Source: Nitrospira sp.
GTDB taxonomy: Bacteria; Nitrospirota; Nitrospiria; Nitrospirales; Nitrospiraceae
Direction: 5' to 3'
Assembly: GCA_005116835.1 (NCBI GenBank)
Contig: SWDM01000018.1
Location: 365,993-429,992, forward strand
DNA: 64,000 nucleotides
Shown piece after piece: positions 8,146 through 61,927 of this stretch. The position numbers and the translations under genes are program-made. How positions within the stretch are numbered: position 1 is the stretch's first letter; each line of letters begins with the position of its first letter. The notes under the pieces were generated by a model. It was given only the letters and a program-made list of their open reading frames with translations. It was not told the origin of the DNA and did no database searches.

Positions 8146-8241
8146 GAGCCACCCCGACACTGCGATGAGACTTTCCACGATGCGGGAGTGGCAAGACTCA
8201 CAGGATAGATCACCCGCGCAATCCGGAAAGGGATCATCATC

Positions 8242-18980: not shown

Positions 18981-19048
18981 CGACGAGTGGTACGAGCTGG
19001 CCGAAGTTTCTATCGGTCAGAAGTTTGGAATAACAGGAGCATATTCAC

Positions 19049-19180
19049 GCAGGGTGCTCAAAAAGGCCGTCCAGCAAGACCGTAGCGAGTAAAGATGGGA
19101 GACGTACCATCGGGGTACGTTGAGGCTCTGAAGGACGCGAGAGCGAAGCTGGCGGATTTTTTCAGCACCCTGCCAAGAGG
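19049..19180. repeat. Dispersed inverted-repeat element, copy 1
   Basis: The left end GCAGGGTGCTCAAAAAGGCC and the right end (reverse complement GCAGGGTGCTGAAAAAATCC) form about 26-bp imperfect terminal inverted repeats around roughly 70 bp that include an ACGTACC/GGTACGT hairpin. The right boundary CCTGCCAAGAGG is shared with copy 2. It lies between tig and clpP, its right end 15 bp from the clpP start codon, so it forms part of the clpP leader. Related copies lie at 32185, 42433 and 60967. Confidence 0.8.
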
Positions 19181-32182: not shown

Positions 32183-32184
32183 CC

Positions 32185-32324
32185 GGATGCTCAAAAAGGC
32201 CGGCTCTGTCTTCGTGAAAAGTGATACGTAAAAGGCAAAAGTTTCGAAAGAAGAGTACTCGACAGTCCTATGTTTCACCTTTCACAGTGCTTGAGAGCGA
32301 CTTTTTCAGCGTCCTGCCAAGAGG
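32185..32324. repeat. Dispersed inverted-repeat element, copy 2
   Basis: The left end GGATGCTCAAAAAGGCCGGC and the right end (complement GGCAGGACGCTGAAAAAGTC) match the element family, including the right-boundary word CCTGCCAAGAGG. The middle differs from copy 1 and contains GTGAAAAGTGATACG/TTTCACCTTTCAC words of the other intergenic-repeat class. It lies between convergent purU and the histidine kinase and provides the last codons of the kinase frame. Confidence 0.75.
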
Positions 32325-39549: not shown

Positions 39550-42432
39550 ATGGCCACACCGGACTTTCTGAGCCCGACAGACACCTTTATCCATCGTCAC
39601 ATCGGTCCATCCGACGCCGAAACTCACGAGATGCTGGCCACACTCGGCATGCAATCGCTAGAGGAGCTAAGCAAGGCCACGGTACCGGCCGACATTCGTC
39701 TGCGAAAGGAATTGGACCTCCCCCTTCATCGCGGCGAGAGCGCTGTGCTGGAAGAGATCCGCTCCATTGCCGCAGAAAACAAGATCTACCGCTCATTGAT
39801 CGGCATGGGCTACTACGATTGCCTGACACCCGGTGTGATTCAACGTAATATTTTTGAAAACCCATCTTGGTATACCCAATACACGCCCTACCAAGCTGAG
39901 ATCGCTCAAGGCCGCTTGGAAGCCCTCGTGAATTTTCAAACGGTCGTCACCGACCTGACAGGCTTGCCCCTCGCCAACGCATCCCTCCTGGATGAAGCTA
40001 CCGCGGCGGCAGAGGCGATGGCTATGTGCCTCGCTATCTCCCGCTCGTCCGGCCACGAACGGACAGAGTTCTTCGCCTCACAGGACTGTCATCCCCAGAC
40101 TCTTTCCGTGATGCAGACGAGGGCGGAACCGCTCGGCATGACGCTGCGCATAGGGAGGACGGGCGCCATCGATTTTTCCAACCCTCAGCTGGCCGGCATT
40201 CTTCTTCAATATCCGGCAACCGACGGGCATGTGTGGGACTACAGCACGCTGGTAACGCAGGCCCATGCGGCCGGTGTTCTGGTGGTGGTCGCCACCGATC
40301 TCCTGGCCTTGACTCTCTTGCGCCCACCGGGAGAATTCGGAGCCGATATCGCCGTAGGTTCTACTCAGCGATTCGGTGTTCCTCTCGGATTCGGCGGCCC
40401 CCATGCCGCGTTTCTTGCAACCGCTGAATCATTCAAGCGTCAGGTGCCGGGACGCATCGTCGGCCTGTCCAAAGATGTCACAGGCAAACCTGCCTCCCGA
40501 CTCTCCTTGCAGACGCGGGAGCAACACATCAGGCGTGAAAAGGCCACGAGCAATATCTGTACGGCCCAAGTGCTCTTGGCCATCATGGCAAGCATGTATG
40601 CGGTCTACCACGGCCCCGAGGGCCTGCGGAAGATTGCCGAGCGTGTGCATGGGTTAACCGTGGTGCTGGCAGCGGGGTTGCGGCAGCTCGGATTCGATGT
40701 CCCCATGGAATCGTATTTCGATACGATTCTGGTTCGCCCGACGAAGGGCCAATCCGAGGCCATCCTGTTACGGGCCAACGAAGCAGGATTCAATCTTCGC
40801 CTGCACGAGGACCACTCCATCGGAATTGCATTGGATGAGGTGAGCACAGAAGCCGAAATTCGCCGCCTGATGGAGATCTTCGCCGGCCACGATCGGCTGC
40901 CCTTTCAGATACAGGACTTGAGCCGGACCATCACCACAAGCTTCCCTGCGAATCTCACCCGCACGGGCAAGTACCTAACCCACGAGGTCTTCAATCGCTA
41001 TCACTCGGAACATGAGATGCTGCGGTACATCCACCGCCTCGGAGCAAAGGATCTGTCGCTCGTCCATTCGATGATCCCATTGGGATCCTGCACCATGAAG
41101 CTGAATGCCACGTCCGAAATGTTGCCGGTCACCTGGCCCGAGTTCTCACGGCTCCATCCCTTTGCGCCGACCGAACAGACCAAAGGATATCAAGAGTTAT
41201 TCCATCAGCTGGAAGCCTGGCTGGCCGAGATTACCGGACTCCCCGCCGTGACCCTGCAACCGAACGCCGGTTCTCAAGGTGAATATACAGGATTGATGGT
41301 GATTCGAGCCTATCATCGGGGCCAAGGAGAAGGCCATCGGGATGTCTGTTTAATTCCCCTGTCCGCCCACGGCACAAATCCAGCCACGGCATCCATGGTG
41401 GGGATGACAGTGGTGACAGTCGCCTGCGATCGGCAGGGGAATGTAGATCTCGCTGATCTGGAAGCCAAGGCCTCTCAGCATCGCGATCGGCTTTCCGCGC
41501 TCATGTTGACCTATCCCTCGACCCACGGTGTCTTCGAGGCGGACGTGCGGCGCATCTGCCAGATCGTCCATACGCACGGAGGGCAGGTCTATATGGATGG
41601 CGCCAACTTGAATGCGCAGGTAGGGCTCTGCCGTCCTGGTGACATCGGCGCGGACATCTGCCATCTGAATCTTCACAAGACATTCTGCATTCCCCATGGA
41701 GGCGGAGGGCCTGGAATGGGGCCGGTCGTGGCGGCGCGGCATCTGGCACCCTTTCTTCCCGGCCATCCCGTGATGCAACTGGGTGGGGATCGGTCCATCG
41801 GGGCAGTATCGGCTGCGCCATACGGCAGTCCCAGCATCGTGACGATCTCCTGGGTCTATATCGCCCTCATGGGACGCGACGGCTTAACCAAGGCCACACA
41901 GGTGGCGATTCTGAGCGCCAACTACATGGCCAAGAGGCTGGAGAAATACTATCCCGTCCTCTATACGGGAACATCCGGCTTTGTCGCGCACGAATTTATT
42001 CTCGACCTCCGTCCCTTCAAGGAAACGACGGGAGTCGAAGCAATGGATGTAGCCAAGCGATTGATGGACTATGGGTTTCATGCTCCGACCGTCTCGTTCC
42101 CGGTTGCCGGAACACTCATGATCGAACCGACAGAGAGCGAAACGAGGGCCGAATTAGACCGATTCTGTGAGGCGCTGATCTCAATTCATGCAGAAATACA
42201 GGACATCGCCGAAGGCCGCCAGCCGCGCACGAATAATCTGCTGAAAAATGCGCCCCACACCGCACAGGTCGTAACAGCCGACGAATGGACTCGGCCCTAC
42301 AGCCGTGAACGGGCAGCCTTTCCTGCCCCCTGGGTGCGGGACCATAAATTCTGGCCCAGCGTCAGCCGCATCGACGAAGCCTATGGGGATCGGCATCTCG
42401 TCTGCACGTGCCCCCCAACCGACACCTACTAA
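39550..42432 (+). CDS. gcvP: Glycine dehydrogenase (decarboxylating), single-chain P-protein
   Basis: This 960-residue enzyme has both the N- and C-halves of P-protein. The pyridoxal-phosphate lysine is at about residue 710 in [20 protein letters not shown]. The N-terminal [10 protein letters not shown] and the mid-region [10 protein letters not shown] and [20 protein letters not shown] are conserved. It decarboxylates glycine with lipoyl-H-protein as acceptor. H and T proteins are not encoded nearby. The inverted-repeat element starts right after the stop codon. Confidence 0.97.
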
Positions 42433-42605
42433 TCGGCTGCTGAAAAAGGCCACCAGCATCGTTCTCAGTCGTGCGTCTCCCTGCGACGTACCGGACACGG
42501 GAAAAGAGCTGTTCCGACAGCTCGGGGTTGGGAGGGTGAGAAGGTTCGCCTCGGCGTTCAAACTCCCTGCGGCCTTGTCATAGAGCCTTTTTGAGCAGCC
42601 CTGAA
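42433..42605. repeat. Dispersed inverted-repeat element, copy 3
   Basis: The left end GGCTGCTGAAAAAGGCCACC directly follows gcvP, and the right end AGAGCCTTTTTGAGCAGCCC is its imperfect complement. Internal words (CGTCTCCCTGCGACGTACC) resemble copy 1 (GGGAGACGTACC). Together this gives an element of about 173 bp. Confidence 0.75.
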
Positions 42606-60837: not shown

Positions 60838-60889
60838 TGCTGAGTGCTGAGTGCTGAGTGCTGAGTGCTGAGTGCTGAGTGCTGAGTGC
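60838..60889. repeat. 7-bp tandem repeat (GTGCTGA, about 7 copies)
   Basis: The unit GCTGAGT repeats about seven times without interruption just upstream of the PTPS-like gene's start codon, in its 5' leader on the minus strand. Such arrays can vary in length between strains by slippage. The word matches the perfect inverted repeat at 5887-5964. Confidence 0.85.
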
Positions 60890-60966
60890 AAGACTTCGTC
60901 CAGACGGACAACTCAAAACTCAGAATTCAACATTACACATTCATCATTGACTTGGGCGCTTACGCG

Positions 60967-61008
60967 CCCAGCAGGATGCTCAAAAAGGCCGTCCAGCAAG
61001 GCCGCAGC
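60967..61008. repeat. Dispersed inverted-repeat element, partial copy 4
   Basis: The word AGGATGCTCAAAAAGGCC and the following CCAGCAAGGCCGCAGCG match the left end of copy 1. No matching right end is found nearby, so only one terminus remains. It supplies the final codons and the stop of the truncated cytochrome gene. Confidence 0.75.
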
Positions 61009-61228
61009 GATCCTTGTTCCCATCGATACCATGACAGTAATGACACACGCCCTTCCCGTTGAAGACTGATCTGCCTCGCTCGGCATCGCCTGCCGGCATT
61101 GTGCTCTTGGGCGACGGCGAGGGACCAGCCAAGGCATTCATTTGAGAGATGTCTGTGATCTGGATCCCCACCAGAAGAAAGCAGGCAAGAATAAGTCCTC
61201 GGAGAGGTTTATGCGTCGAGCCACTCAT
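60980..61228 (-). pseudogene. Truncated c-type cytochrome
   Basis: The start MSGSTHKPLRGLILACFLLV (AAGGGTAATGTG upstream) begins a signal peptide. The mature part ends shortly after the heme motif: GDAERGRSVFNGKG, VCHYCH, GIDGNKD, then RCGLAGRPF stop. The last nine residues are encoded by the repeat element. A working class I cytochrome c needs about 60 more residues and an axial methionine after CxxCH, all missing. It is probably a remnant cut by insertion or deletion at the element. Confidence 0.75.
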
Positions 61229-61420
61229 CACATTACCCTTCCAATCGATCATAATCTTGTCCATAGAGCTCGCTGATGGTGTGCTGCTCACTCGTGAGAC
61301 TCCTTGTTCATGCAAGCGAAGAACATATAGCTGATAGGGTATGGTTCAGAATAAAAACAGAAGGTCCGTACCATCAGCTATAAGCCATCGGCCATACGCT
61401 CTTATCCCTTAAGAAGCGTT

Positions 61421-61927
61421 TCACGAACCGCTTTTGACTTTAAACTCCAAATGACAGGCGACACAGGCCTTCAGAACCTTGTTGAACTTCGGCAAGATCT
61501 GCTTCAGATCTTTCGTGGAGATAATGCGCGCCAACTCTTCCGCCGCCGCATTATGCGCCTGAGCTAATTCGATATAGGCTAGAGGAAATTGTCCCAGCTG
61601 TTGATGCGCCTCGGGGAGAGGCGCGTCTTGGCGCGCCTGGGGCTGGGTGGGTGAGATAAGATGCCGGTGCATGAAAAAACCCAGGTGGGATTCGGTCAGC
61701 CCCTTCGCCAACTCATAGTCCTCTTCGACCAGCGCGTTCACGATCACCTGAATAGATTCCAGGTGCTGCAACATCACCGCACGATGTTCTTTCCCTGCCG
61801 GTGACGACAATGGAATGGGGTGCCTGGTATCGGAGATGGCATAGGGATTGGGGCGCTGTTCCCCATGGAAAGGATATACCTGGCTGCATCCCGTTGATAA
61901 CACGAGACAAAGGGCCCCCAGAGCCAT
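61421..61927 (-). CDS. Lipoprotein with C-terminal CxxCH heme motif (cytochrome c'-like)
   Basis: The start MALGALCLVLSTGC gives about 168 residues with lipobox cysteine at residue 14; the frame can be extended 19 codons upstream without a better ribosome site. The mature part is helical (EDYELAKGLTESHLGFFMHR, QLGQFPLAYIELAQAHNAAA) with CVACH near the C-terminus (KACVACHLEFKV), the placement typical of cytochrome c'/c-556. It probably carries one heme, high-spin or bis-liganded, at the membrane. Confidence 0.8.
   Translation of the reverse strand: MALGALCLVLSTGCSQVYPFHGEQRPNPYAISDTRHPIPLSSPAGKEHRAVMLQHLESIQVIVNALVEEDYELAKGLTESHLGFFMHRHLISPTQPQARQDAPLPEAHQQLGQFPLAYIELAQAHNAAAEELARIISTKDLKQILPKFNKVLKACVACHLEFKVKSGS

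Follow-up and report, generated by a model that had tools for sequence, protein, structure and literature searches.

The stretch of Nitrospira sp. DNA analyzed here (the window; 64,000 nucleotides of contig C10) carries near its right end a minus-strand open reading frame (60980–61315) for a secreted c-type cytochrome, which can be followed to 61315 with a TTG start and which, read from the ATG at 61228, ends with a stop at 60980. In order, the frame contains a signal-peptide-like start, the CxxCH heme motif of class I cytochromes c (CHYCH), the residues IDGNKD, the peptide RCGLAGRPF and a stop. As the original prediction had stated, and as the sequence confirms, it reads to CHYCHGIDGNKD and then directly into RCGLAGRPF and a stop that stem from a repeat element. 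The truncated gene (60980–61228, minus strand) thus consists of 73 native codons, with native end ...GRSVFNGKGVCHYCHGIDGNKD, followed by nine codons that fall within the left part of the repeat and an element-encoded TGA. A Pfam search with this frame gave zero matches, whereas the intact copy of the gene on contig C20 of the same genome matches PF00034 at residues 75–168 of 181; behind the heme the complete domain is absent, including the HPGTGMF-type motif, a segment that we take to be the site of the distal heme ligand (Met) in cytochrome c. On one side of the gene lies its cluster neighbor, a cytochrome c′ family gene (PF01322; 61421–61984, minus strand). On the other side lie the first 40 nt of a palindromic repeat element, of which the right two thirds are missing (60971–61010, plus strand), a GGGCGC-TTAC-GCGCCC palindrome (60954–60969), a short tandem repeat of TGCTGAG-type units (60838–60890), with similar low-complexity spacers seen upstream of PTPS in relatives, and a PTPS-family gene (PF01242; 60076–60828, minus strand) that stems from another locus.

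The cytochrome family is widespread in Nitrospira, with 62 loci found by contig search and 22 of the 32 genus genomes matched at E ≤ 1e-15. We examined 70 loci, these 62 and eight from a separate genome search, several of them partly from the same genomes. The heme motif is seen in 69 of the 70 loci read to the stop codon, each with 88–104 residues from the first heme cysteine onward versus 21 in the window copy, in line with the original view that a functional class I cytochrome needs far more sequence behind the heme; the one locus without the motif (L194) has a sequence that starts behind the heme. A short orthologue, which would have counted against the original prediction, was not found among these 70 loci, and a gene in G007 that seemed a second truncated case was rejected, as it ends at an N gap. 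The closest orthologue, that of Nitrospira sp. CG24C (L139; contig C22 of G041), is the full-length, element-free gene at a contiguous locus of a close relative that the original prediction had proposed to look for: it has 181 amino acids and is identical to the window copy in 96 of its first 102 residues, and the truncation is therefore derived. Judged by its sequence, the window gene is a truncated derivative of a full-length cytochrome c. That the short protein is itself functional, as a putative secreted heme-binding peptide, is hardly credible: its signal-peptide-like start and heme motif are intact and it ends in a proper stop, but it lacks the HPGTGMF-type segment found in 67 of the 70 orthologue loci, it has no short orthologue among them, and an intact paralogue exists. 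In relatives, the cluster comprises a cytochrome c′ gene, often a hemerythrin-domain gene, and this cytochrome c, with UspA-, SnoaL-, phosphoribosyltransferase- and Hsp20-like genes beyond (names without a Pfam call are given by resemblance). One relative, Rifle clade B (L134 and L135, also G014), carries two cytochrome c′–hemerythrin–cytochrome c copies, both near contig ends, which suggests repeated duplication of the cytochrome cluster.

The repeat into which the frame runs belongs to a dispersed family. A search of the 3.94-Mb genome at up to 2 mismatches finds its 26-nt terminus 55 times and the reversed control not at all, and the 39-mer at 60970–61008 occurs once in the window at up to 3 mismatches, with 0 expected. 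The complete element is an imperfect palindrome of about 127 bp (124–128 bp in the 24 copies aligned), and one example copy, when folded, gives a single long hairpin. A right end follows the left end after 107–195 nt in 29 of the 30 element loci listed, the exception being the window copy, so that the original prediction was right in stating that the other half of the element is missing. A profile scan over 400 kb of contig C10 gave 38 hits, 27 of them full and 11 partial, among which the window copy is the sole lone left half; elsewhere, lone left fragments occur once each in the scanned stretches of G012 and CG24C. No target duplication is obvious by eye in the flanks of the listed copies. 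Other copies or relatives of the element lie in the window at 19044–19175, 32183–32318 and 42432–42600, the last with a longer interior. Among the papers listed by our literature searches, none deals with this locus or with the repeat family, and the passages of PMC12542641, PMC12306157 and PMC6006769 that were consulted hold nothing relevant beyond an N. moscoviensis table row in a REP-sequence survey. A different repeat, of about 260 bp, is found at the ends of this genome's contigs C3, C6, C8, C13 and C22 and internally in contigs C5, C16, C17 and C20; halves of it, about 130 bp each, lie at several of the contig ends, and it may represent the joined ends of an insertion sequence.

The join between element and cytochrome can be placed at 61010/61011, as C20 matches the window up to 61011 and the element consensus stops at 61010. 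The cytochrome had been described as cut short at the element's terminus; the truncation does lie at the element, but the join sits 40 nt inside it, with the outer terminus (about 60971) turned toward the PTPS gene. At the join, cytochrome sequence ending in ...GGGAACAAGGA meets element sequence that starts TCGCTGCGG, with no microhomology visible, neither side having the adjoining base of the other parent, and with no element sequence on the cytochrome side. From this lack of microhomology we infer that the ends were joined illegitimately and not by recombination between element copies. The earlier proposal of recombination as the cause of the loss holds only broadly, as a rearrangement; recombination of two element copies finds no support. 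Similarity of the window DNA to CG24C passes from contig C5 to contig C22 of that genome between 60922 and 61011, that is, at the position of the element. The exact junction sequence was found in no other source searched.

The surroundings of the element half point to its origin. In G019 the spacer between PTPS and DUF3501 contains a complete element, oriented as in the window and immediately next to a GCGCTTACGCGC palindrome; the window element half adjoins the same palindrome and continues into the spacer upstream of PTPS. The palindrome is common to the PTPS spacers of G019 and G005, the latter without the element, and among the 30 listed element loci (L001–L030) only the window element has it nearby. 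Since G019 has the complete element and the same palindrome at the homologous place, the element is assigned to the PTPS spacer, of which it was most likely an original part, the break having fallen within it; its position in G019 would then reflect common descent. Independent insertion at the same spot may have occurred instead, because the spacers of 11 of the 12 relatives lack the element and that of CG24C lacks both element and palindrome. Read by eye, the DUF3501 frame of G019 (L101) seems to run into the element and to take its stop codon from the element's end.

These observations bear directly on the mechanism originally proposed, in which insertion of the element into the cytochrome gene was followed by a deletion, or by recombination of two copies, that took away what remained of the gene. 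In its favor, the frame runs out within the element, whose right part is missing. Against it, the element and the palindrome next to it can be aligned with the PTPS spacer of G019; past the outer element end the DNA continues to PTPS, which belongs to another locus; and in none of the relatives does the heme region show an element. Deletion alone, moreover, conflicts with the gene order in G012 and G007 (see below). We consider insertion followed by deletion or recombination improbable. The original prediction had also proposed a search for the missing right end elsewhere. A 19-nt match to it does occur on the minus strand of C20 (L061; about 8160–8180), where the 5′ part of the intact cytochrome gene encodes the signal peptide (19/19), but as a reciprocal element half it was set aside, since intact cytochromes of relatives carry the match at the same codons (19/19 in L133, of Rifle clade A, and 18/19 in L134) and more distant orthologues show graded resemblance, which makes the match look like an ancient trait of that signal peptide.

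The other partner of the join, the PTPS gene, is normally not a neighbor of the cytochrome: it has no match in the 15 relative stretches around the cytochrome, and it lies 127 kb (G007) or 143 kb (G012) from the cytochrome on the same contig, or on a different contig in CG24C. The join therefore unites loci that in relatives are on different contigs or 127–143 kb apart. PTPS was hit in 14 relatives, and with G014 and G002 left out, 12 stretches were fetched; in 11 of these, and in CG24C, DUF3501 precedes PTPS, the exception being G007 with an N gap at this place. In the present genome DUF3501 has no match (protein search, five of five candidates scored). DNA searches for the DUF3501 side, with 40 candidates scored out of 460, 162 and 103, returned nothing but repeats for the neighboring genes (40 of 162 and 40 of 103), so that the absence of the neighbors is less firm than that of DUF3501 itself. 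In G012, PTPS at 137 kb is followed by the equally oriented cytochrome cluster at 280 kb, and G007 agrees; CG24C would have the same order if the end of its contig C5 adjoins the start of its contig C22, as is suggested by C10, whose positions 465478 and 465708 match these two contig ends. A plain deletion between cytochrome and PTPS was rejected, because PTPS lies ahead of the cytochrome in both G012 and G007 and, by inference, in CG24C.

The genome contains a second copy of the cluster. Contig C20 (21 kb) starts inside a cytochrome c′ gene that is identical to the window over 120 nt and then diverges; after it come an intact hemerythrin-domain gene (PF01814), the intact 181-residue cytochrome and the UspA side of the cluster. 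The window copy and the C20 copy are the only cytochrome copies listed for this genome; the 3′ half of the window copy was not found elsewhere in the genome, and cytochrome function is presumably kept by the intact C20 copy. Contamination was considered as a source of C20 and is disfavored, 4.5 kb of the contig having no second copy in the genome, if repeats and the cytochrome match itself are set aside. Compared with C20 and CG24C, the window sequence beside the join falls into three tracts. The 3′ part of the cytochrome c′ gene (61437–61643) is C20-type (205/207, versus 150/173 aligned for CG24C), the following stretch of spacer, hemerythrin remnant and signal peptide (61096–61436) is CG24C-type (338/341, with C20 alignable over 58 nt only), and the heme tract (61011–61095) is again C20-type (85/85, versus 70/85 for CG24C). 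The 58 nt are the remnant of the start of the hemerythrin-domain gene (61240–61297), 76% identical to the intact C20 gene, and the same decayed remnant is present in CG24C. Over 3,419 overlapping 340-nt windows, C10 and CG24C share a mean identity of 85.6% (sd 5.2), and only windows overlapping the tract 61096–61436 reach at least 98%. The simplest reading is that one copy of the locus received the middle tract as a short piece of DNA imported from a CG24C-like species, with a chimera of strains as the alternative. The mosaic indicates a locus history more complex than a single event.

Such a mosaic also raises the question whether the contig combines different cells or strains, by assembly artifact or strain mixture, so that no single genome would carry the truncated gene. 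The identity of the cytochrome c′ end to C20 over exactly 120 nt followed by divergence resembles a branch in an assembly graph (120 nt may, as a suggestion, be the assembly word length), tracts of C20 type and of CG24C type follow one another in the window, the join coincides with a repeat, and a 100-N scaffold gap (C10 365893–365992) ends directly before window position 1. Against this, the join itself has no N and no long repeat, the 40 nt of element having nothing in common with the cytochrome side; where one tract type gives way to the other, there is no long identical overlap that could produce a chimera; the intact DUF3501–PTPS arrangement, the expected leftover of a misjoin, was not found in the assembly; and C20 is otherwise single-copy. 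An artifact or mixture is on balance unlikely, if well short of negligible, and we infer that the join exists in a living genome.

The orientation of the parts allows a more specific, tentative proposal. The window links the downstream end of the PTPS-to-cytochrome segment to its upstream start in direct orientation, which is the form of the joint of a tandem duplication or a circle. The join could thus be the novel joint of an about 150-kb tandem duplication, or of an excised circle, reaching from PTPS to the cytochrome cluster, with C20 as the exit of the second, intact copy and with the duplicated tracts reshuffled by the CG24C-like import, a scenario to which we give a minor share of the probability; translocation or a mixed population are possible alternatives to duplication. 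The block common to C10 and CG24C ends at C10 482477, and this block end, the 100-N gap and the missing DUF3501 side argue for further rearrangement in the genome; because of the gap, linkage across the left edge of the window is a scaffold join only. If a duplication of about 150 kb were true, it would place large-scale duplication and between-species tract exchange at a respiratory cytochrome locus of an environmental Nitrospira, and this duplication-and-mosaic reading is the only part of the present case of specialist interest.

Taken as a whole, the locus is probably best explained as a cytochrome c pseudogene that arose when the chromosome broke and was rejoined. The last gene of the conserved cytochrome c′–hemerythrin-domain protein–cytochrome c cluster would have been broken in its heme region, and the broken cytochrome end would have been joined, without homology, to the inside of an element already present in the spacer upstream of PTPS, with illegitimate end joining as the likely repair route. 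Such a join would remove the 3′ half of this cytochrome copy, part PTPS, across the join, from its usual DUF3501 neighbor, and leave the gene with a fortuitous tail, nine codons and a stop, contributed by the element. The gene decay and the event are of an ordinary kind. The case matters mostly as a warning: where a gene runs into a repeat it mimics an insertion, whereas here relatives suggest that the element came from the other side of the rearrangement.

In comparison with known systems, the window copy resembles class I cytochromes c (PF00034) in retaining a signal peptide and heme motif and differs in lacking about 70 residues behind the heme and any Pfam match. From its sequence, the repeat is like MITE or REPIN-like elements in being short and dispersed, with near-perfect inverted ends and a one-hairpin fold, but at the window join only an incomplete copy takes part. 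In insertional inactivation an element is flanked by two parts of the same gene or their remains, and here it is not. The closest parallel is with pseudogenes at rearrangement breakpoints, where a gene is likewise cut by the join of loci that lie apart in relatives while an intact copy persists elsewhere, the difference being that here the repeat is a bystander, broken on one side, and not a substrate for homologous recombination.
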